Notes under the pieces: generated by a model | Databases searched by the model: none | Seen by the model: the letters and a program-made list of their open reading frames with translations, nothing else | Told to the model about the DNA's origin: nothing | Position numbers and translations under genes: made by a program | Assembly (NCBI GenBank): GCA_017798125.1 | Contig: CP059070.1 | Span: 1,612,001-1,676,000, forward strand | Reading direction: 5' to 3' | DNA: 64,000 nt | Source: Cryomorphaceae bacterium | GTDB taxonomy: Bacteria; Bacteroidota; Bacteroidia; Flavobacteriales; ECT2AJA-044 | Shown: positions 34,481 through 45,254 of the stretch, piece after piece | Layout of the letters: every line of letters starts with the position of its first letter | How positions within the stretch are numbered: the stretch's first letter is position 1

Positions 34481-35218
34481 ATGAAAAGATTAATTCTCCT
34501 CACTGCTCTTTTATCTACTTCGCTTTTCTTCTCCTCTTGCGATAAGGATAATGATCCCGAAGATGGGTCGGTAACCCTTCGCGTTAATTTTAAAGCTCAA
34601 GGCAATGACATTGGCTTGAATGAAAGCTTTGCATACAACGGAGCGGACCACCAAGTATCCAAAATTAAAATGTACCTCTCCAATTTGACCTTAGTCTGCG
34701 ATTGCGGTGCGCGCCGCAGTCTATCCGATGTTGTCTTGGTCGATTCGGAGAACGAGGTTTACACCTTTGATTTCGAAGTTCCACAAGGTAAGTACACCGC
34801 ATTGGAAATGTCTCTCGGCCTGCCAGAGGATGTAAATGCCAGCGACCCTGCTATGTTTGATGCAGAGCACCCCTTGAGCGCTGTTCAAAACATGTACTGG
34901 ACCTGGGCGTCCAAGTACCGATTCCTCATTTACGAAGGGCGTGTAGACAGCACGCAGTCCGATAATTTCGACCATCTCCTCGTTTACCATACAGGAACGG
35001 ATACCCTTTATCGCGAGCTTGAGAGTATAGCGCTGAATTTAGATGTCAGCGGAGAAGGTCAGTATACCATTGACTTGAATTTCGATCTTCAGAATGTCCT
35101 ATATCGTGCTGAAGATCCTATTGATGTATTTGTCGATGATGCAACCCATACCATGGACAATATGGAGCTCGCACGTCGCATCACTGATAACGCCGCCGCG
35201 AGCTTCAGCGTGGAGTAA
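34481..35218 (+). CDS. mbnP: MbnP-like copper-binding lipoprotein
   Basis: A 245-residue lipoprotein (lipobox FFSSC) of the MbnP family: VNFKAQGNDIGLNESF, YLSNLTLV, and the conserved MYWTWASKYRF block (residues 138-148). In methanotroph MbnP the partner peroxidase MbnH converts a tryptophan to kynurenine, creating a copper site; the Trp residues 140 and 142 here are natural candidates. The very next gene, three bases downstream, is the matching diheme peroxidase, which supports the assignment. No methanobactin biosynthesis genes are present in the window. Confidence 0.85.
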   Translation: MKRLILLTALLSTSLFFSSCDKDNDPEDGSVTLRVNFKAQGNDIGLNESFAYNGADHQVSKIKMYLSNLTLVCDCGARRSLSDVVLVDSENEVYTFDFEVPQGKYTALEMSLGLPEDVNASDPAMFDAEHPLSAVQNMYWTWASKYRFLIYEGRVDSTQSDNFDHLLVYHTGTDTLYRELESIALNLDVSGEGQYTIDLNFDLQNVLYRAEDPIDVFVDDATHTMDNMELARRITDNAAASFSVE

Positions 35219-35221
35219 TTG

Positions 35222-36244
35222 ATGAAAGGCGTCCTCTTCTTTGGGCTTGGCATCATCACCTTGTTCGGTTCTTGTGCTCGACGGCCTTCGCCTGAACTAG
35301 CACGTCCCGAAATCCCTTCTTCATGGCCTTCCATCTCGGAGGTCGATGATAATCCTTGGAATCCCGAACGGGCTGCCCTTGGAAAAGAGCTTTTTTTTGA
35401 GCCGATGCTCAGTCGACAGGGCAATGTCAGCTGCGGAACGTGCCACCAGCCCGATCACGCCTGGACGGTTGAAGAGGCCTTGGTCATGGGAACGGAAGGG
35501 ACCCGTTTTTTTCGCCATCCGCCTTCGCTTTTAAATGTGGGCTTCTTCACCTCTTGGCACTGGGACGGTGGAACCACGAGTTTGGAAAAGCAAGTGCTTG
35601 CCCCTCTGGAGAATCCGGATGAAATGAACATGCGTTTGGATACGCTTCTTTTGCGCCTACGGCGCGATGCCTATTACAGCCAACGATTCAATGGAGTATT
35701 CGGAAAGGAACCTGACATGTACGGCATCACCCGAGCATTGGGGGCTTATCAGCGTTCATTAATCTCAGCCCAAAGTAAATGGGATCAAGTCCAAAGGGGC
35801 CGAGCTAAATTTTCCCCCTTGGAGCTCAGGGGGGAGGAGTTGTTCCTTTCCGATAGCCTTGCCTGCTCGAATTGCCATACACCTCCACTTTTCACAGACT
35901 TAGATTTTCACAATACCGGGATTTGGTCTTGGGGCGATAATGACCCTGGACGATCTAGGGTGACGCTGGACTCTCTTGATCGCGGAAAGTTCAAAACCCC
36001 CACCTTAAGAAACCTAGCTTTCACCAAACCGTACTTCCACAACGGTGAGGTGCAAACCCTGGGGGAAGTCCTCGATCATTACGCAACCAAAGGCAATAGC
36101 AATCAGCATTTGGATCCTAAAATCAAGGGGTTTCAGCTGAATGTCGAAGATCGAGATGCTCTACTGTCTTTCCTGCTGACTCTGACTGATTCGAATACCA
36201 TTCGGAACCCAGAACTCCGTATTTCTTCTGTACTCTTGCCTTAA
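35222..36244 (+). CDS. mbnH: MbnH-like diheme cytochrome c peroxidase
   Basis: From ATG 35222 the product is 340 residues with a lipoprotein-type signal (ITLFGSC) and two heme c motifs, CGTCH (about residue 74) and CSNCH (about 219), in the order of the bacterial diheme peroxidase family. KTPTLRNLAFTKPYFHNG is the usual distal-side signature. Pairing with MbnP points to the MbnH subfamily, which uses a bis-Fe(IV) state to oxidise a tryptophan on MbnP. A palindrome variant (35653-35668) lies in frame inside the gene. Confidence 0.87.
   Translation: MKGVLFFGLGIITLFGSCARRPSPELARPEIPSSWPSISEVDDNPWNPERAALGKELFFEPMLSRQGNVSCGTCHQPDHAWTVEEALVMGTEGTRFFRHPPSLLNVGFFTSWHWDGGTTSLEKQVLAPLENPDEMNMRLDTLLLRLRRDAYYSQRFNGVFGKEPDMYGITRALGAYQRSLISAQSKWDQVQRGRAKFSPLELRGEELFLSDSLACSNCHTPPLFTDLDFHNTGIWSWGDNDPGRSRVTLDSLDRGKFKTPTLRNLAFTKPYFHNGEVQTLGEVLDHYATKGNSNQHLDPKIKGFQLNVEDRDALLSFLLTLTDSNTIRNPELRISSVLLP
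35653..35668. repeat. Palindrome variant inside mbnH
   Basis: GCGCCTACGGCGCGAT keeps the TAC loop and flanking GAT of the family, with the stem changed on both arms (GCGCC/GGCGC). A near-identical copy sits at 1821-1836 in the lipoxygenase gene. Confidence 0.55.
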
Positions 36245-36345: not shown

Positions 36346-36376
36346 TTGGTGATACATAGGCATTTGTCTAATTTTG
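36346..36376 (+). promoter_or_regulatory. Promoter of the CarH/LitR-like regulator
   Basis: TTG (36346-36348) and TAATTTTG (36369-36376) are 20 bases apart, a good Bacteroidota promoter. Downstream the sequence CTAAACTTGAACAAA parallels GTAAACGTTAAACAAA at the sigma-factor promoter (37897-37912), suggesting common control. Confidence 0.6.
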
Positions 36377-36405
36377 TTGAACTAAACTTGAACAAAAAAG
36401 CGCTG

Positions 36406-37296
36406 ATGGTTACATATTCCATCAAAGATTTGGAGAAATTCTCCGGAATAAAGGCACACACCATTCGGGTGTGGGAGCAGCGCTATGGCCTATTAAACCC
36501 TGAAAGAACAGATAGTAACATCCGGTTTTATGATGAAGAGCAGCTAAAGCACTTGCTCAACATCAGTCTTCTCGCCAACAACGGCCATAAGATTTCGAAA
36601 ATCGCGAAATACAGTTCTGAAGAGTTTAATCAAGAAGTTCGCTCCATATATGAGCGCTTTGAAAACGAAGCTTCTTCAGAGGCGATAAAAGTGAAGATCA
36701 ATGGCCTTATCATGGCCATGTTGGAATTGGACGAGCTCAAATTTGAGAAGATCTTCTCTACGAGCCTGCTGAAGCGCGGCTTCGAAGGAACCATCCTGGA
36801 GTTAATCTATCCTTTTCTTCAGCGCATTGGGATAATGTGGCGCACGGGTGAGGTGAGTTGCGCACAAGAACACTTCATCACGAACCTCATTCGTCAAAAG
36901 GTGCTGGTAGCAATTGATGCTATTCCACTCGCGACGGGAGACAATGAAAAATTCCTGCTCTTCTTACCGGAGTCTGAGTTCAATGAGCTCTTGACGCTGT
37001 TGTCCACCTATATACTAAAGAGTAAAGGAAAGCAGTGTATCTACTTGGGGCAAGATATCCCTTTTCAAGACTTGAAATCTGTAGCGGAGATAACATCACC
37101 GCACGCCTTGATGACCTTCTTAACGGAACCTGCAAGCCAGGAGGAAAGTCAGGAATACATCAATCAATTGGCGGAGACTTTTCCCTCTGAGTCTATTATA
37201 ATTTCGGGTAATGTATCCTTCTTACACGATCTAGATCGCCCGGGTAACGTAACTATTATTGACTCCCTCCGTCACCTTGTTGAGGTGATCCACTAA
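36406..37296 (+). CDS. CarH/LitR-like MerR regulator lacking the cobalamin lower-ligand His
   Basis: The 296-residue regulator has a MerR winged helix (YSIKDLEKFSGIKAHTIRVWEQRYG) and a C-terminal cobalamin-binding-type region. CarH-type photoreceptors use a W-x9-EH motif in the helical bundle and a DxH/ExH histidine as lower axial ligand. Here W145-x9-E155-H156 is intact (MWRTGEVSCAQEH), but the loop reads LPESEFNELLTLL: the ligand position holds Asn193 and no His occurs between 157 and 200. The following YLGQDIP is as in CarH. It probably represses the adjacent ECF sigma/carotenoid operon, but direct B12-based light sensing is doubtful. Start ATG 36406 fits family N-termini. Its end overlaps the PAS gene by four bases. 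Confidence 0.88.
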   Translation: MVTYSIKDLEKFSGIKAHTIRVWEQRYGLLNPERTDSNIRFYDEEQLKHLLNISLLANNGHKISKIAKYSSEEFNQEVRSIYERFENEASSEAIKVKINGLIMAMLELDELKFEKIFSTSLLKRGFEGTILELIYPFLQRIGIMWRTGEVSCAQEHFITNLIRQKVLVAIDAIPLATGDNEKFLLFLPESEFNELLTLLSTYILKSKGKQCIYLGQDIPFQDLKSVAEITSPHALMTFLTEPASQEESQEYINQLAETFPSESIIISGNVSFLHDLDRPGNVTIIDSLRHLVEVIH

Positions 37297-37712
37297 GCCT
37301 GCATGCGCTTTTGATCATGTTCTTCTTCTGGCCATATGAAGGTGACTTTATGTGGCTTCCCTAGTATATCTGGGGAAAAACCAGCATCTGCCGAGATTTT
37401 AAAGGTGTGGCCATCCTTGTGCTGGACTTCCCAGTTTCTAAAAATCTCGTCTTTAAGCTTCATGAAGATGTCGTGCAGATCTTGCAGCCTATCTTGATCA
37501 TTCTCTGGTACAACCATGAGAAAGGATGATCCGACCATCTCGGATTCCTCGTACCCGTACAAGCGCAAGTAGTTTTGATTGACCGCGGAATAGTTTCCAA
37601 GCTCGTTGGTAATACAAATTGCCAAAGGGGTGTTTTCAATAATTGCTGCGAAATCACTTGGGTTCGCTTCCAGTTGTTCTTTAAGGCGTTGGGTTTCTTT
37701 TAAATCGATCAT
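37293..37712 (-). CDS. Stand-alone PAS domain protein
   Basis: A 139-residue protein that is essentially one PAS domain (DFAAIIENTPLAICITNELG, NYLRLYGYEESEMVGSSF, WEVQHKDGHTFKISADAG) with a short N-terminal helix. It has no kinase, HTH or other output. The LOV cysteine motif (NCRFLQ) is absent, so it is not a canonical flavin photoreceptor; the ligand is unknown. Its position between the MerR regulator and the ECF sigma gene, convergent with the first and divergent from the second, makes it a good candidate for a sensory partner of this light regulon. Confidence 0.82.
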   Translation of the reverse strand: MIDLKETQRLKEQLEANPSDFAAIIENTPLAICITNELGNYSAVNQNYLRLYGYEESEMVGSSFLMVVPENDQDRLQDLHDIFMKLKDEIFRNWEVQHKDGHTFKISADAGFSPDILGKPHKVTFIWPEEEHDQKRMQA

Positions 37713-37829
37713 GGTTACTCTAATTCCTGGACTAACGAAGTTAAAAATCAGCCATAAAGTTACATATTAAAGTTTCGAAAAGAAATGAAAGAACGTAAGT
37801 AGCTGAAAATCAGGGGTAAAAATAAAATG

Positions 37830-37846
37830 TTTAACAAAGTGTTAAA
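37830..37846. promoter_or_regulatory. Candidate operator in the PAS/sigma intergenic region
   Basis: TTTAACA-AAG-TGTTAAA is a perfect 7-bp inverted repeat with a three-base spacer, 78 bases upstream of the sigma ATG. Its geometry suits a dimeric MerR-type regulator. Confidence 0.5.
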
Positions 37847-37880
37847 TAAGTTCCACAATCCATGGTGGTTTGAAGTTTCT

Positions 37881-37910
37881 TGTTTAATTTTGGATTGTAA
37901 ACGTTAAACA
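37881..37910 (+). promoter_or_regulatory. Promoter/operator of the ECF sigma-carotenoid-photolyase operon
   Basis: TAATTTTG (37885-37892) is a perfect -7 box, but no -33 TTG lies at 17-23 bases; a TTTG is only 12 bases away. The box is embedded in an inverted repeat TGTTTAA / TTAAACA with a 16-base spacer. A missing -33 with overlapping dyads suggests regulator-dependent transcription. Confidence 0.5.
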
Positions 37911-37924
37911 AACCTCTTGAAATA

Positions 37925-38431
37925 ATGACAACTGCAGAATTTGGAAATCTCATGGTTGATCACACGCAATTCCTCAAGCGTCTGGCCATGAATTTGACTA
38001 AAGATGTCGAAGAAGCCAATGACTTGACTCAAGATACCTTCCTTAAGGCCATCGCGAATCAAGACAAATACATGCCCGGGACAAACATCAAAGGGTGGTT
38101 GTATACCATCATGCGGAATACCTTTATTAATAAGTATCGCAAGCAAAAGTCTCGTAACACTTTTGTCGACAGTACAGATAACAACTACTTCCTAAATCAA
38201 AAGGAAGCGAATAAGGAGTCCAAAACTGATTCTGTCGTCAATCAGAATTATTTAATGGAGCAAATCCAATCCGTGGACAAGAACTACGTAGATACCTTTA
38301 TGATGCACTACGAAGGGTATAAGTACGAAGAGATAGCAGAGATCTTGAACATTCCATTGGGTACCGTAAAGAGTCGAATCTTCTTGGCCCGTAAAAAGCT
38401 CATGGAGAAGTTGAAAGACTACCGCTACTAA
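37925..38431 (+). CDS. ECF-type RNA polymerase sigma factor
   Basis: A 168-residue sigma factor with region 2 (DLTQDTFLKAIANQDKY, NIKGWLYTIMRNTFINKYRK) and region 4 (YEEIAEILNIPLGTVKSRIFLARKKL) separated by a linker rich in Asn and Lys. No anti-sigma gene is adjacent, so control is likely transcriptional, through the MerR-type regulator. It is the first gene of a run of ten plus-strand genes that ends with a photolyase; gaps are eight bases or less or overlaps. The link of a MerR regulator, an ECF factor and crtIB is known from light-induced carotenogenesis clusters. Confidence 0.92.
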   Translation: MTTAEFGNLMVDHTQFLKRLAMNLTKDVEEANDLTQDTFLKAIANQDKYMPGTNIKGWLYTIMRNTFINKYRKQKSRNTFVDSTDNNYFLNQKEANKESKTDSVVNQNYLMEQIQSVDKNYVDTFMMHYEGYKYEEIAEILNIPLGTVKSRIFLARKKLMEKLKDYRY

Positions 38432-38438
38432 GAATTAC

Positions 38439-39935
38439 ATGTCCCAAAAAGCCATTGTCATAGGATCCGGTTTTGCCGGCTTGTCTGCAGCAACGCACCT
38501 TGCTGAGGCGGGATTCGAGGTGACCATTCTTGAAAAGAATAGTCAGCCAGGCGGCCGTGCTCGACAATTTGAAGCCGCCGGTTTCACTTTTGACATGGGG
38601 CCTTCATGGTATTGGATGCCGGATGTTTTTGAGCAATACTTTCAGACGTTTGGAAAAAAAGTATCCGACTACTATCAGTTAGAAAGACTCGATCCTTCAT
38701 ATAGGGTTTATTTCGGTGAAAATGATTTTGTCGATTTAAGCGCTGAGATCGAAGAGCTTTTTGACATGTTCGATAGAATTGAGTCTGGCAGTGCCGCGGA
38801 GCTTAAGTCATTTTTAAGTGATGCTGCCTATAAATACGAAGTAGGTATTAATGATCTAGTTCGGAAGCCCGGTCGATCCTTGCTCGAATTCGCTGATTGG
38901 CGCGTTGCAAAAGGAGTTGTCCAGTTGCAGTTGTTCAGTTCCATTCAAAAGGTCATTCACAAGAAATTCAGTCATCCAAAACTCAGATCCTTACTCGAGT
39001 TTCCAGTGCTGTTCTTGGGAGCAATGCCCAAAGATACTCCTGCCTTATACAGCCTCATGAATTACGCTGACATGGTTGGAGGAACATGGTATCCAAAAGG
39101 AGGGATGTATGAGATTGTCAAAGCGATGGTCTCATTAGCTGAAGAAAAGGGTGTTCAAATCTTGTGTGATCAAGAAGTTACCCGAATTGCCATTCATGGA
39201 GGGCGCGCAAATAGAGTATATACGACCGAACAAGTGTATGAAGCGGATGTATTCGTGGCCGGAGCGGATTACCACCATGTAGAACAGAATTTACTCCCTC
39301 CAGAGGGTAGAATGTACAACGAAAAGTACTGGAGTAAGAGAAAAATGGCCCCAAGTAGCTTGTTGTACTACATTGGGTTGGACAAACCTCTTGATGGTGT
39401 GTTGCATCATACGTTGTTCTTTGACGAGAGCCTAGAAGAGCACGGCAAGGAGATTTATGAAAACCCAAAATGGCCATCGAAACCTCTTTTCTACGTCAGC
39501 GCCGTAAGCAAAACAGACCCTGACAGTGCTCCTGAGGGTATGGAGAATGTTTTTATTCTTATCCCTACGGCACCTGGATTGGAAGATGGGCCTGAGGTGC
39601 GAGAGAAATACTTAGAAATCGTCTTGGAGCGGTTAGAGCGGTTGACGGGTCAGAATGTCCGTGACCATATCGTTTATCAGCGCTCCTACGCCCATAAAGA
39701 CTTTGTTGAAGACTATCACGCCTTTAAAGGCAATGCTTATGGTCTGGCCAACACCCTTGACCAGACAGCCATTCTCAAACCGGCCATGAAGAGTAAGAAA
39801 ATTAAGAACTTGTACTTTACAGGACAGCTTACTACGCCTGGGCCAGGTGTTCCTCCCAGTTTAATTAGCGGCCAGGTTGTTGCGGGAGAGGTGGTAAAGG
39901 ACCTAAAAAAAGATTTGGATGAAAGCTTTGTATGA
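38439..39935 (+). CDS. crtI: Phytoene desaturase (CrtI type)
   Basis: This 498-residue FAD-dependent enzyme desaturates phytoene toward lycopene or a shorter polyene. The N-terminal dinucleotide fold (KAIVIGSGFAGLSAATHLAEAG, GGRARQFEAAGFTFDMGPSWYWMP) and the C-terminal NLYFTGQLTTPGPGVPPSLISG signature are diagnostic of bacterial CrtI. It overlaps crtB by 17 bases. No lycopene cyclase or carotenoid hydroxylase is in the window, so the final carotenoid cannot be inferred. Confidence 0.95.
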   Translation: MSQKAIVIGSGFAGLSAATHLAEAGFEVTILEKNSQPGGRARQFEAAGFTFDMGPSWYWMPDVFEQYFQTFGKKVSDYYQLERLDPSYRVYFGENDFVDLSAEIEELFDMFDRIESGSAAELKSFLSDAAYKYEVGINDLVRKPGRSLLEFADWRVAKGVVQLQLFSSIQKVIHKKFSHPKLRSLLEFPVLFLGAMPKDTPALYSLMNYADMVGGTWYPKGGMYEIVKAMVSLAEEKGVQILCDQEVTRIAIHGGRANRVYTTEQVYEADVFVAGADYHHVEQNLLPPEGRMYNEKYWSKRKMAPSSLLYYIGLDKPLDGVLHHTLFFDESLEEHGKEIYENPKWPSKPLFYVSAVSKTDPDSAPEGMENVFILIPTAPGLEDGPEVREKYLEIVLERLERLTGQNVRDHIVYQRSYAHKDFVEDYHAFKGNAYGLANTLDQTAILKPAMKSKKIKNLYFTGQLTTPGPGVPPSLISGQVVAGEVVKDLKKDLDESFV

Positions 39936-40755
39936 TCAAGTCAGCTTGCGCTGCAGTAAAATCGTTACACGCTCTTACAGCACCTCTTTTTCTATGGGGA
40001 TCCGTTTGCTGAGTTCAGAGCTTCATGATCCTATTTATGCGGTTTATGGATTCGTGCGTTTTGCTGACGAAATTGTCGATAGTTTCCATGATTTTGACAA
40101 AAAAGAGCTCCTCGATCGGTTCAGATTAGAGACCTATCAGGCATTGGAGGAACGAATCAGTCTGAATCCCATCTTGAACAGTTTTCAAGAGGTCGTTCAT
40201 CGCTATAGTATTGAGCGCGAACTCATTGATGCCTTCCTGCATTCCATGGAAATGGATTTAGAAGATCGCGAATATGATCAGAGCAGTTTTGAAGAGTACA
40301 TTTTGGGATCGGCTGAGGTAGTTGGACTGATGTGCTTAAGGGTTTTCCTCAACGGAGATGAAGCAGAGTACCAAAGACTAAAGGCACCGGCAATGAAGCT
40401 GGGTTCAGCTTTTCAGAAGGTCAATTTTCTGCGGGATTTAAAGGCGGATTATGAGAAGCTTGGTCGAAGCTACTTTCCCGACGTAAACCTCGAGATGTTT
40501 GACCAAATGAGCAAACAAGAGATCGAGGCTGATATTGAAGCAGATTTTAAAGAGGCCTTAGAGGGAATTAAAGAATTACCGAGAAAAGCGCGGTTCGGAG
40601 TATATCTGGCCTACATGTACTATACGCGCTTGTTTGAAAAAATTAGGAACACAGAACCCATGGTCATCATGCAGGAACGTGTTCGCATCCCGAATACAAA
40701 GAAGTATGGCCTCATGGTTGGAACCTACTTCCGTTATCGCATGAACTTGCTATGA
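39919..40755 (+). CDS. crtB: Phytoene synthase
   Basis: A 278-residue prenyl-transferring enzyme that condenses two geranylgeranyl diphosphates into phytoene. Visible motifs are the first Asp-rich site in VRFADEIVD, SYSTSFSMGIRLL at the N-terminus, and the second site NFLRDLKADYEKLGRSYFP. It starts inside the end of crtI and ends overlapping idi by four bases (ATGA), so crtI, crtB and idi are translationally coupled. Confidence 0.95.
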   Translation: MKALYDQVSLRCSKIVTRSYSTSFSMGIRLLSSELHDPIYAVYGFVRFADEIVDSFHDFDKKELLDRFRLETYQALEERISLNPILNSFQEVVHRYSIERELIDAFLHSMEMDLEDREYDQSSFEEYILGSAEVVGLMCLRVFLNGDEAEYQRLKAPAMKLGSAFQKVNFLRDLKADYEKLGRSYFPDVNLEMFDQMSKQEIEADIEADFKEALEGIKELPRKARFGVYLAYMYYTRLFEKIRNTEPMVIMQERVRIPNTKKYGLMVGTYFRYRMNLL

Positions 40756-41288
40756 AGGTAGAAGAAGTCGTACTCGTTGACGAACAGGACCAAGCATTGG
40801 GCCGAATGGAGAAAATGGAAGCTCATCGCAAAGGAGTCCTCCATAGAGCATTCTCTGCCTTTGTATTGAACGACCGGGGAGAATTAATGCTCCAGCAGCG
40901 TGCTCATGAGAAGTATCACAGTGGTGGTCTGTGGACGAATACGTGCTGCAGTCATCCAAGACCAGACGAACAAGTTCTAGTCGCGGGAGAAAGAAGACTC
41001 ATAGAAGAAATGGGATTCACAACTCCACTTAAACGTTTATTCAAGTTCATTTACCGAGCTGAGCTAGACAACGAACTCACAGAACACGAACTCGACCATG
41101 TTTTGTTGGGTTACTACAATGAAGATCCTATTGTGAATTCAGCAGAGGTCGCAGATTTTCGATGGGTGGGTCTAGACGAAGTGAGCCTTGAGATACAAAG
41201 CCATCCAGAACGCTTTACCGAGTGGTTTAAAATATGCTTTGAACCCTTTCATGAGCACATGCAAGAGTTGAGCGGAGCAAGAACTTGA
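40752..41288 (+). CDS. idi: Isopentenyl-diphosphate isomerase, type 1
   Basis: The 178-residue protein isomerises IPP and DMAPP, raising precursor supply for the carotenoid genes next to it. It shows the active-site Cys region TNTCCSHPRP, the Nudix-like RRLIEEMGF, and the catalytic Glu segment TEHELDHVL. Its place in the carotenoid operon matches its role. Confidence 0.95.
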   Translation: MKVEEVVLVDEQDQALGRMEKMEAHRKGVLHRAFSAFVLNDRGELMLQQRAHEKYHSGGLWTNTCCSHPRPDEQVLVAGERRLIEEMGFTTPLKRLFKFIYRAELDNELTEHELDHVLLGYYNEDPIVNSAEVADFRWVGLDEVSLEIQSHPERFTEWFKICFEPFHEHMQELSGART

Positions 41289-41295
41289 TTGATCA

Positions 41296-41706
41296 ATGAA
41301 GGTTACAGTACATCGTAAAGCGCATTTCAATGCGGCTCATCGCCTATACAATCCTAAGTTGGACGATGAACGAAATAGACAGCTTTTTGGTAAGTGTGCG
41401 AACGATAACTATCACGGCCATAATTACGACTTAATTGTCAGTGTAAAGGGGGAGATTGACCCGGAAACGGGTTACGTCATTGACATGAAGGTCTTAAAGG
41501 ATATTATCCGCACAGAAGTGGAAGAACCTTTTGACCACAAAAACCTAAATCTGGATGTGCCTGAGTTTGCGGAACTAATTCCGACGGCCGAGCACATTGC
41601 CGTAGTCATTTGGCGCAGGATCCGAGCAAGGATCAATGAGCAATATGAACTAAAAGTGACCCTGTATGAAACGCAACGGAATTTCGTCGAATACGACGGA
41701 AAATAA
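41296..41706 (+). CDS. 6-pyruvoyl-tetrahydropterin synthase family protein (CX5HGH type)
   Basis: A 136-residue T-fold enzyme. Zinc ligands are H15-like in FNAAHRLYNPK and the pair in YHGHNYDL; the catalytic Cys34 precedes them as C-ANDNY-HGH. The CX5HGH spacing is that of true PTPS enzymes of the tetrahydrobiopterin pathway, while the QueD queuosine enzymes usually have CX3HGH. DPETGYVIDMKVLK, FDHKNLN and the terminal YETQRN complete the family. It overlaps folE by 41 bases. Together they could make a 6-substituted tetrahydropterin; the end product is unknown. Confidence 0.88.
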   Translation: MKVTVHRKAHFNAAHRLYNPKLDDERNRQLFGKCANDNYHGHNYDLIVSVKGEIDPETGYVIDMKVLKDIIRTEVEEPFDHKNLNLDVPEFAELIPTAEHIAVVIWRRIRARINEQYELKVTLYETQRNFVEYDGK

Positions 41707-42403
41707 CGGATACCACAATGGTGCCGTTCGCCTGGCGGAAGAAATATTGACAGTGGTTGAACCAGATGAGGATTTCATTGGGGATAACCATGTAGGAACG
41801 AGCAAGGATACTCCGATGCTCGAAGATGCCTTTGATGCAACGGATGAAGAGAAGATCGAGCAGATTGCCTTTCATTTCGGCAAAATCATGGACATCATGG
41901 GACTAGATCGTTCCGATGACAGTCTGAAAGGAACTCCTGGCCGTGTGGCCAAGATGTATATCAAAGAAGTGTTTAGCGGTTTGAATCCAGCGAATAAGCC
42001 GGAGGTTAAGCTGTTTGAAAACAAATACGGGTACGACGAAATGCTCGTAGAAAAGAACATCACCTTACACTCGTACTGCGAGCATCACTTTGTGCCCATT
42101 ATCGGGAAAGCGCATGTGGCGTACAAGAGCAATGGGAAGGTGATCGGATTGAGTAAGATTAATCGCATCGTGAAGTACTTCGCAAAACGACCTCAAGTAC
42201 AAGAGCGCCTAACGGAGCAAATTGCAGATGAGCTAAAACGCGTTCTTCAGACGGAAGACGTGGCAGTAATCATAGACGCGGAGCATATGTGTGTAAGTAC
42301 CCGCGGGATTGAAGATGTAAACAGCGCAACAGTTACTTCGCATTACAGTGGAGCGTTTAAAACCGAGCGTACACAAAACGAATTCCTTAAATACCTCGAC
42401 TGA
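41666..42403 (+). CDS. folE: GTP cyclohydrolase I
   Basis: The 245-residue enzyme converts GTP to 7,8-dihydroneopterin triphosphate, the entry to folates and pterins. Zinc-binding residues are in HSYCEHHFVPI and HMCVSTRG; KGTPGRVAKMY and NSATVTSHYSGAF are also conserved. A ~45-residue N-terminal extension precedes the core, and the ATG lies 41 bases inside the PTPS gene. Its location in a light-inducible-type operon rather than a folate operon suggests supply of pterins for photolyase or another light-linked use. From memory, folE also occurs in light-induced gene sets of Pseudomonas. Confidence 0.95.
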   Translation: MKRNGISSNTTENNGYHNGAVRLAEEILTVVEPDEDFIGDNHVGTSKDTPMLEDAFDATDEEKIEQIAFHFGKIMDIMGLDRSDDSLKGTPGRVAKMYIKEVFSGLNPANKPEVKLFENKYGYDEMLVEKNITLHSYCEHHFVPIIGKAHVAYKSNGKVIGLSKINRIVKYFAKRPQVQERLTEQIADELKRVLQTEDVAVIIDAEHMCVSTRGIEDVNSATVTSHYSGAFKTERTQNEFLKYLD

Positions 42404-42404
42404 T

Positions 42405-42578
42405 ATGTTTGGACTATTCAAATCAGATCCCATCAAGAAGCTAGAGAAAGCTTACAAAGCGAAGCTGGAAGAAGCTCGGGATGTTCAGCGAGGAGGCGAC
42501 GTGCTTAAGGCCGGTCAATTGACCGCTGAAGCAGAAGAAATTGCCAAGCAAATGGACGAACTCAGAAGCAAAAAGTAA
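42405..42578 (+). CDS. DUF6435 (Lacal_2735 family) small protein
   Basis: From ATG 42405 this is a 57-residue charged helical protein beginning MFGLFKSDPIKKLEKAYKAK and ending with an AEAEEIAKQMDELRSKK helix. The MFGLFKSDP start and heptad-like body identify the small DUF6435/Lacal_2735 family, which has no known function. It sits one base after folE and shares a base with the start of the SDR gene, so it is an integral member of the operon. Confidence 0.85.
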   Translation: MFGLFKSDPIKKLEKAYKAKLEEARDVQRGGDVLKAGQLTAEAEEIAKQMDELRSKK

Positions 42579-43279
42579 TGGCTCATTACCTCATCATAGG
42601 CGGAAGTTCAGGGACGGGCTTGAAGGTTGTAAAGGATCTGCTTCAAGAAGGACACCAAATCTGGGCAGCGAGCAGAAGCGAAGGAGGTCTTGAAGGCCTG
42701 TCTGGCGTCCACTGGCAGTCTTTTGATGTGACCGATGAAGAAGCTAGTTTAAATGATCTTCCTGAAGTGCTGGATGGATTGGTCTACGCACCTGGGACGA
42801 TTAATTTGAAGCCATTTCACATGCTCCGCGAGCGTGTTTTTCGCGACGAAATGGAAGTGAATTTCTTTGGTGCGGTGCGCAGTATACAACAATCTCTTCC
42901 GCGACTCAAGAATTCGGAACACGCCTCTATTGTCTTGTACAGTACGGTGGCCGTCCAAACTGGGATGCCCTTCCACGCCAGTATTTCATCGAGTAAAGGA
43001 GCCATTGAGGGTCTAACCCGTTCTTTGGCTGCTGAATTTGCACCCAAGATTCGCGTGAACGCCATCGCTTTAAGTTTGGTCGACACACCGCTTGCGGATC
43101 GGTTGCTCAACAACGATAAAAAACGCGAAGCCAGCTCCGACCGCCACCCACTGAAAAGAGTGGGTAGCACGGAGGATAGCTCCGCAGCCACGCGCTTCCT
43201 TCTCGGAACAGACTCGAGCTGGATCAGCGGACAAATAATGCAAGTAGACGGCGGAATGTCGGCCTTGAGACCCCTCTAA
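42578..43279 (+). CDS. Atypical SDR without the catalytic Tyr
   Basis: A 233-residue Rossmann protein with a glycine motif GGSSGTG and LVYAPGTIN (NAG-like), plus the C-terminal SGQIMQVDGGMS of classical SDRs. The active-site stretch reads FHASISSSKGAIEG: the Lys is kept (K140), but the Tyr four residues earlier is Ile136. Classical YxxxK chemistry is therefore unlikely. Between a pterin pathway and a flavin reductase, it could act on a pterin or flavin or serve as a binding protein. It is five bases from the flavin reductase gene. Confidence 0.88.
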   Translation: MAHYLIIGGSSGTGLKVVKDLLQEGHQIWAASRSEGGLEGLSGVHWQSFDVTDEEASLNDLPEVLDGLVYAPGTINLKPFHMLRERVFRDEMEVNFFGAVRSIQQSLPRLKNSEHASIVLYSTVAVQTGMPFHASISSSKGAIEGLTRSLAAEFAPKIRVNAIALSLVDTPLADRLLNNDKKREASSDRHPLKRVGSTEDSSAATRFLLGTDSSWISGQIMQVDGGMSALRPL

Positions 43280-43284
43280 CCAAC

Positions 43285-43950
43285 ATGGACGAACTCAGTT
43301 TTACATCGGATGATTTTCCACAAATGGAGCGCAGGTACCGCGCACACTTTTTCAATTCCCTAACTGGATTCAAAAGTGTAAATCTGTGTGGATCGTGCAG
43401 CAAGAGCGAAAAGCCCAACCTGGCCATTTTCAACTCGGTATTTCATTTGGGAAGTAACCCACCTTTGATGGGTATGATTATTCGCCCCGCTACGGTGCCC
43501 CGTCATACCTTGACCAACATTATAGAGCAAAACGAGTACACCTTCAACCATATCCATGAGGACATCGTGGCTTCGGCGCATCAAACAGCGGCGAAATATA
43601 CCCGCACACAGAGCGAGTTCGAAATGACGGGTCTAACCCCGTATTTTTCGGAAAATATGAAAGCGCCTTATGTCGCCGAGTCTCGAATAAAAATTGGTTT
43701 GCGCTTTCGCGAACGCTACAACATCCAAGCCAATCACACCATCATGATTGTTGGGGAAGTTGTAGAAGTAATTCTTCCCAAGAATGCGGTGGGTATGGAT
43801 GGTTTTATCGACTTACACGCTGCGGGAACCGTCACAGGGAGTGGACTTGACGCTTACTTGACTACTGAGAAGATCGCCCGCTTATCTTACGCACGGCCCT
43901 ACGAAGACCTTCGCGAACTCAACTTCAACAAGCAAAATCAGGAGCATTGA
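43285..43950 (+). CDS. Flavin reductase family protein (split barrel)
   Basis: A 221-residue FMN-binding split-barrel protein: FNSLTGFKSVNLCGSCSKSEKPNLAIFNSVFHLGSNPP, RPATVPRHTL and NEYTFNHIHED. These fit the flavin reductase-like/DIM6 group that binds FMN and reduces free flavin. In this operon it could keep FAD or a pterin reduced, or load the photolyase. It overlaps the photolyase start by four bases (TTGA). Confidence 0.88.
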   Translation: MDELSFTSDDFPQMERRYRAHFFNSLTGFKSVNLCGSCSKSEKPNLAIFNSVFHLGSNPPLMGMIIRPATVPRHTLTNIIEQNEYTFNHIHEDIVASAHQTAAKYTRTQSEFEMTGLTPYFSENMKAPYVAESRIKIGLRFRERYNIQANHTIMIVGEVVEVILPKNAVGMDGFIDLHAAGTVTGSGLDAYLTTEKIARLSYARPYEDLRELNFNKQNQEH

Positions 43951-45254
43951 GTCCTGTCAATTTTTTCTGGCACCGCCGTGACCTTCGCATAGAAGATAAT
44001 CACGGATTGTATCTGGCCCTACGGGCCGATGAGCCTACCATCCCTGTTTTCATCTTTGATCGTTCAATTCTCGATAAGCTAGAGGATAAAGACGACGGGC
44101 GTGTGACTTTTATTCACAATGAAGTTCTGCGCGTAAAAGAACAATACGAAGAAGCGGGTGGAACTTTGCTCATTGGTTATGGAACGCCTCATGAGGTTTG
44201 GTCCAAGTGGCTCGAGGAATATCCCGTCGCCAAGGTATATGCGAATGAGGACTACGAGCCTTATGCCCGTGATCGGGATCGTGAAATAGCCCAATTGTGC
44301 AGCGAGAACGAAGTTTCTTTTGAGGCGGTAAAGGACCATGTCATATTCGAGAAAGATGAAGTGGTCAAAGGTGATGGTACACCTTATGTGGTTTATAGCC
44401 CATATAGCCGATTGTGGAAGAAGCAGTTGACTGAAGATCACCTTGCCCCGTTCACGTCAGAAAGCAATCTTAGCGGGCTTAATCAGATGCCTCCTTCGCA
44501 AGCCATATCCTTGAATGATATGGGCTTTATTCCGAGCTCGCTTGAAATACCCAGTCGAAGGCTAGACGAAGATATTGTATCTCAGTACCACGAGACAAGA
44601 GACCTTCCCGCCATGCGTGGAACCACTCGCATGAGCGTGCATCTTCGCTTCGGAACAGTGAGTATCCGATCCCTGACCAAAAGCGCATTAGCGCTTAATG
44701 AAAAGTATTTGAACGAGTTGATTTGGCGGGATTTTTACCAGGCCATCATCTACCATTTTCCGCAAGTCGACGGAAAAGCATTCAGACCTGAGTACGATTT
44801 TATCGAGTGGGAAAACAACGAGGAGCACTTCGATCGATGGTGCCGAGGCAGAACGGGATATCCCATTGTAGACGCGGGAATGCGTGAGCTCAATGCGACT
44901 GGATTCATGCACAACCGAGTGAGAATGATTGTCGCGTCCTTCCTGACCAAGCACCTTTTGATTGATTGGCGTTGGGGTGAGGCCTATTTCGCTCGAAAGC
45001 TCATGGACTTTGAGCTGGCCAGTAACAATGGTGGTTGGCAATGGGCGGCTGGTAGCGGTGTGGATGCTGCACCTTATTTCAGGGTGTTCAACCCCGAACT
45101 CCAAATGAAAAAGTTTGACCCGAAATTAGCCTATGTCAGGAAGTGGGTGCCCGAATTTCAAGAATTAACCTACACGCCAATCGTCGAGCATAAAATGGCT
45201 CGGGAACGAGCCATTAGTCGATATAAAGAGGGAATAGAACGCGGCAGGTCATAA
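43947..45254 (+). CDS. phr: Class I CPD photolyase
   Basis: The 435-residue enzyme splits cyclobutane pyrimidine dimers using blue light. The N-terminal antenna domain begins VNFFWHRRDLRIEDNHGLYLAL and the FAD domain has ELIWRDFYQAIIYHFP, GRTGYPIVDAGMRELNATGF, HNRVRMIVASFLTKHLL and the active-site NNGGWQWAAGSGVDAAPYF (about 355-375) with the flavin-facing Asn. It starts at TTG 43947. The codons for LALRAD form an exact copy of the dispersed palindrome (44014-44030). It closes the light operon. Confidence 0.95.
   Translation: MSPVNFFWHRRDLRIEDNHGLYLALRADEPTIPVFIFDRSILDKLEDKDDGRVTFIHNEVLRVKEQYEEAGGTLLIGYGTPHEVWSKWLEEYPVAKVYANEDYEPYARDRDREIAQLCSENEVSFEAVKDHVIFEKDEVVKGDGTPYVVYSPYSRLWKKQLTEDHLAPFTSESNLSGLNQMPPSQAISLNDMGFIPSSLEIPSRRLDEDIVSQYHETRDLPAMRGTTRMSVHLRFGTVSIRSLTKSALALNEKYLNELIWRDFYQAIIYHFPQVDGKAFRPEYDFIEWENNEEHFDRWCRGRTGYPIVDAGMRELNATGFMHNRVRMIVASFLTKHLLIDWRWGEAYFARKLMDFELASNNGGWQWAAGSGVDAAPYFRVFNPELQMKKFDPKLAYVRKWVPEFQELTYTPIVEHKMARERAISRYKEGIERGRS
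44014..44030. repeat. Dispersed palindrome, exact copy inside phr
   Basis: TGGCCCTACGGGCCGAT is the exact reverse complement of the intergenic 17-mer, read in frame as part of LALRAD. The flanking protein keeps normal family length, so the motif did not arrive as an insertion. Confidence 0.75.

Follow-up and report, generated by a model that had tools for sequence, protein, structure and literature searches.

The 64,000-nucleotide stretch of DNA analysed here (the window) comes from a genome of 2.84 Mb in one contig (G000:C1:1612001-1676000), and the host family is represented by one further genome, G001, which belongs to the same genus. Positions 36409-45254 of the window carry, in this order, genes for a MerR-type regulator, a PAS protein on the reverse strand, an ECF sigma factor, CrtI, CrtB, IDI, a QueD-like protein, FolE, an SDR, a flavin reductase and a photolyase (Table 1). 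As the preliminary description had it, the PAS gene is convergent with the MerR gene, the two stops overlapping by four bases, and divergent from the sigma gene, with 212 bp between the two starts. Just upstream of MerR, at 34481-36244, lie an MbnP gene and then a gene for a MauG/CCP-type di-haem peroxidase.

Table 1. Genes and putative regulatory elements around the MerR-PAS-sigma region, in window coordinates.
Feature	Positions	Strand	Remarks
Third operator copy (putative)	36364..36395	+	2 mismatches; in front of MerR; also present there in G001
MerR-type CarH/LitR homologue	36409..37296	+	Wx9EH kept; B12 lower-axial His replaced by Asn192
Single-domain PAS protein	37293..37712	-	139 aa; N- and C-terminal helices; without output domain
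Candidate -7 element of PAS promoter	37755..37762	-	TAACTTTA; TATCTTTG in G001; predicted
Degenerate second operator copy (putative)	37827..37858	+	3 mismatches; 53 bp upstream of exact dyad
MerR-type operator, exact dyad TTGTTTAA-n16-TTAAACAA	37880..37911	+	predicted MerR binding
ECF sigma factor	37925..38431	+	heads crt operon; 168/168 aa the same in G001
CrtI phytoene desaturase-type gene	38439..39935	+	
CrtB phytoene synthase	39919..40755	+	
IDI, QueD-like, FolE, SDR, flavin reductase, photolyase	40752..45254	+	conserved light-stress cassette

The PAS ORF matches the PAS fold of Pfam (E 8.7e-10) and has an ortholog at the matching position in G001, to which it is 75% identical over 139 aa, as compared with 90% for MerR and 100% for sigma, making PAS the fastest-evolving of the three proteins. 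Differences between the two PAS genes number 31, 16 and 72 at first, second and third codon positions respectively; third positions therefore vary most, from which it follows that the gene is under purifying selection. Because synonymous sites are saturated between the window and G001, in PAS as in the neighbouring genes, and the gene is nevertheless kept in G001, PAS has been retained across a long divergence. Judged by this pattern of substitution, the ORF is a real gene that is under purifying selection within the genus. The four-base overlap with MerR is not conserved, the two genes being separated by 15 bp in the sister genome. There is no second copy of PAS in the window's own genome, where the protein matches itself alone. 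At the DNA level, the sigma gene of the window (37925-38431) is 81% identical to that of the other species (L034:9511-10017), the encoded proteins being identical in 168 of 168 residues.

The survey of gene order covered about 100 loci that encode a MerR homologue, and 42 of these, including that of G001, carry both MerR and sigma. Families f8 and f5, which belong to the same order, commonly have the MerR-sigma-CrtI-CrtB array, as do other orders of the class; IDI usually accompanies it, and QueD, FolE, SDR, flavin reductase and photolyase often do so too. Where MerR and sigma share a strand, the gap between them measures 26-466 bp in this survey, with the exceptions of G001 (623 bp, containing PAS) and of L035, where the gap contains a gene for a SulP-type transporter (L035:7296-8825); at a single locus, L139, MerR and sigma are divergent. 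No PAS gene lies between MerR and sigma at any of the 41 loci outside the genus. The three-gene order, for which a survey of related genomes had been proposed, is kept in G001 but is absent from all 41 other loci, and the presence of PAS at this locus is specific to the genus among the genomes examined. The protein's nearest relatives, at 36-45% identity, come from family f43, where they occur as solitary PAS genes and as PAS domains of kinases; no crt genes are found near these relatives.

MerR carries the Pfam domains MerR_1 and B12-binding_2 and is homologous to Thermus CarH (PDB 5C8D, E 8e-24). Its AlphaFold2 model (pLDDT 90) has a Rossmann domain as well as the MerR HTH and the four-helix B12-type part, and CarH-type B12 domains are its best fold matches (Z 16-17); AppA SCHIC, another B12-type fold, is also among the matches. 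The Wx9EH motif is intact (W144, E154 and H155) and, in an ungapped alignment, the position of CarH His177 is taken by Asn192. A histidine occupies this lower-axial ligand position in 94 of 102 MerR homologues; the eight that lack it belong to the window genus (two), to genus g121 (two) and to a set of paralogues in family f19 (four). The light-responsive signature of such proteins consists of GxxW, EH, GxxH and GxxxP (PMC11796333), of which the window MerR keeps all except GxxH, replaced by SEFN. In CarH the H177A substitution leads to loss of AdoCbl binding and of tetramer formation, and H193A in CarH of M. xanthus abolishes B12 binding or function (PMC4557120). The window MerR is probably unable to bind AdoB12 in the manner of CarH. 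The preliminary description had made the PAS protein the candidate sensor or co-regulator in the event that MerR cannot use B12: the premise probably holds, given Asn192 in place of His, but a light-sensing role for PAS is left unsupported. A genome-wide loss of B12 as the cause of the His loss was rejected, as the genome encodes a PduO-type adenosyltransferase, methylmalonyl-CoA mutase and a MetH-sized B12 protein; since these B12 enzymes are retained, the change of His is particular to the MerR regulator.

In a MerR tree of 102 rows that includes both the window and G001, these two form a clade with the stand-alone His-less MerR of g121 (a genus from a different order) at 100/100 support. 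At its crt locus (L126) one g121 genome, G575, also has an ordinary MerR with the His. The window sigma, CrtI and CrtB, on the other hand, fall with proteins from families f5 and f8, which belong to the window's own order, and the history of the regulator therefore differs from that of the operon. It seems from these groupings that the MerR normally found at the crt locus was here replaced by a His-less lineage; loss of His in place, within the order's own crt MerR, is not favoured. Neither the His-less MerR of g121 (G575 and G755) nor the four His-less f19 paralogues have a PAS gene beside them. Loss of the His therefore does not need PAS, as the g121 proteins demonstrate, and the simple story in which PAS replaced B12 is weakened by them. 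His-less f19 paralogues at L156, L157 and L160 are directly divergent from a bshA-like glycosyltransferase gene (bacillithiol synthesis), and a gene of the same type lies about 2 kb from the His-less MerR of g121 (L125 and L167).

Two perfect dyads had been described in the region between PAS and sigma. One of them stands, in that the exact dyad TTGTTTAA-n16-TTAAACAA is specific (shuffled controls yield 0.36 such matches per window), but the other, TTTAACA-n3-TGTTAAA at 37830-37846, is part of the degenerate operator copy and attainable by chance, at least one match with up to two mismatches being found in 33 of 100 shuffles. In 41 of 42 loci the operator element, again at up to two mismatches, lies close to the start of sigma, and 28 of these have it as a tandem pair; the second copy of the pair in G001 has a single mismatch. 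All of these operator-bearing loci, G001 excepted, are without PAS, and the dyads were accordingly rejected as PAS-specific elements. The PAS promoter had been placed in the region that holds them, but they are not shared with PAS in any specific manner and would represent the operator through which MerR acts on the sigma-crt promoter throughout the class. The -7 element of Bacteroidota promoters has the consensus TAnnTTTG, and the exact operator includes such an element, TAATTTTG at 37885-37892, belonging to the sigma promoter, as expected of a repressor site. The putative PAS promoter likely sits outside the MerR-type operators, and conserved blocks are also present in the region upstream of PAS. 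The putative operator copy ahead of MerR suggests autoregulation.

The AlphaFold2 model of the PAS protein (pLDDT 86) has a PAS fold plus extra N- and C-terminal helices. Its best fold matches are the FixL and DOS heme PAS domains, short LOV proteins, PYP and NifL, and the heme PAS domains of FixL and DosP are among the best matches by sequence as well as by fold. As the scores of FixL, DosP, LOV, PYP and NifL are bunched together, the fold does not single out a cofactor. The LOV adduct Cys (GxNCRFLQ) is missing, the window protein reading VGSSFLMVV with Phe64 at the Cys position; together with the Pfam match, this bears out the earlier characterization of a single-domain PAS protein without output domain and without LOV Cys. 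The proximal heme His in the F-alpha helix of FixL and DosP aligns with Leu76, and His80, which is invariant in the PAS family, lies four residues (one helix turn) past that position. We therefore rejected PAS as a LOV or a classical FixL-type heme sensor, and no known chromophore signature was recognised in it among those checked (LOV Cys and FixL heme His). Light sensing by this protein, for which it had been put forward, is a possibility that has no sequence mark to speak for it.

Several described systems resemble the locus in part. PmlR2, a LitR protein of class II from Pseudomonas mendocina, is thought unable to bind B12, and the illuminated stand-alone protein PmSB-LOV binds PmlR2 directly, which takes PmlR2 off the DNA (PMC9758184). 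The statement that no MerR-PAS light switch has been described is not fully accurate in view of this pair, albeit one with a true LOV domain and no ECF sigma. Common to both cases are a LitR/CarH-type MerR without B12 sensing (a loss that is predicted for the window) near a stand-alone, output-less protein of the PAS superfamily, and a regulon that includes photolyase and folE. They differ in that PmSB-LOV is a true FMN LOV protein with Cys53, PmlR2 has no Rossmann B12 domain and no ECF sigma/crt operon is involved, whereas the window combines a non-LOV PAS as the putative partner with a full B12-type fold carrying Asn for His and with an ECF sigma-crt operon. Myxococcus xanthus offers a second parallel in CarA, a B12-independent CarH paralogue that represses a crt promoter and is released by the small partner protein CarS, an ECF sigma factor also belonging to the pathway (PMC9304148). 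CarA has the B12 His but not the Trp of Wx9EH, the reverse of the window MerR, and the candidate partner in the window differs from CarS in being a PAS protein. CarH of Thermus thermophilus shares with the window MerR the HTH, the four-helix and Rossmann B12-type domains and the control of crt genes (predicted for the window MerR), but has His177 and 11-bp direct repeats where the window has Asn192 and an inverted-repeat operator. AppA SCHIC and PpsR (4HH3, 4HH2), a B12-type fold protein and a PAS protein, jointly control pigment genes, and folds of both types appear in our structure match lists; the resemblance is one of general fold alone, as DNA-binding arrangement and origin differ. The report on MliR, a MerR-like regulator of marine Bacteroidota, contains nothing on B12 or crt genes (PMC9478572).

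Judged by its residues, the window MerR is not a class I CarH, since the HTH, B12 domains and Wx9EH are there but the lower-axial His is missing. Nor is the locus a class II LitR pair: there is an output-less PAS neighbour, but the Rossmann domain is present and the LOV Cys absent. By analogy it looks like a third arrangement of the PmlR2/PmSB-LOV and CarA/CarS sort, and would work as those systems do only if the predicted MerR-PAS interaction exists.

The reading that we put forward, tentatively and with slightly less than even confidence, is that of a LitR/CarH-type module with a B12-independent MerR, in which the genus-specific stand-alone PAS protein serves as partner. MerR in this module (MerR, ECF sigma, crt, folE and photolyase) would no longer use AdoB12 as a light sensor, would still repress the sigma-crt promoter at a tandem dyad operator covering the -7 element, and would probably repress its own promoter too. 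PAS, having been added beside MerR in this genus, would most likely relieve or tune MerR, either as antirepressor or as co-regulator, in the way that PmlR2 is controlled by PmSB-LOV and CarA by CarS. We infer the loss of B12 binding, the binding of MerR to the dyads and the MerR-PAS partnership from sequence. The resemblance of PAS, with its terminal helices, to short LOV structures is consistent with a partner role, whereas the position of the putative PAS promoter clear of the operators counts against it, as does the faster evolution of PAS relative to MerR and sigma. PAS and the His loss co-occur in one genus with two genomes, i.e. in a single evolutionary event, and their co-occurrence is therefore not statistical evidence of a link. 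It is doubtful, if conceivable, that the LitR/CarH-ECF-crt light-stress switch of Bacteroidota has here gained a new input module, with a CarH-lineage repressor whose B12 fold is whole but whose cobalt-ligand His is lost, ruled by a non-LOV PAS partner. If so, loss of one ligand residue would have turned a B12 photoreceptor into a partner-controlled repressor with fold and operator intact, and the locus would provide a second example of a stand-alone PAS protein acting on a CarH-family repressor, this time outside Pseudomonas and non-LOV.

PAS may instead be an unrelated insertion, in which case MerR, sigma and crt would work alone, with a B12-independent MerR answering some other signal or partner, and PAS would act elsewhere in the cell. 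This is a serious alternative, although we consider it on the unlikely side: it accommodates the PAS-free MerR-sigma loci outside the genus, the His-less MerR proteins without an adjoining PAS, the solitary f43 relatives away from crt genes and the unrelated transporter gene in the L035 gap, but it does not readily explain why PAS occupies this site in both species of the genus, with purifying selection acting on it, or why there are conserved blocks upstream of PAS as well. In an improbable alternative, PAS would respond to oxygen, redox or a small molecule, its target being, in the manner of an anti-sigma factor, the ECF sigma instead of MerR. There is no anti-sigma gene to be seen beside the sigma gene, and the FixL and DosP matches and the invariant His80 would suit a sensor of that kind; yet the relatives have their sigma in place without PAS and likewise without an evident anti-sigma gene, and His80 is one helix turn beyond the FixL heme position. 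We give little credence to the idea that MerR binds a corrinoid or other tetrapyrrole without a His ligand and stays the light sensor, with PAS accessory at most, since the retained GxxW, EH and GxxxP (PMC11796333), the AdoB12-forming adenosyltransferase of the genome and the AppA SCHIC fold match are countered by the lost GxxH and by the defects of the His mutants of both CarH proteins (PMC4557120).

As to the regulon of MerR, the tandem operator found across the class makes it directly testable in Bacteroidota. The perfect core TGTTTAA-n13-18-TTAAACA occurs twice in the whole genome, once at the sigma promoter and once at the start of a fasciclin-domain (FAS1) gene (L168:7031-8057; G000:C1 about 1870030), which is likely, on this prediction, to be a second target of MerR.
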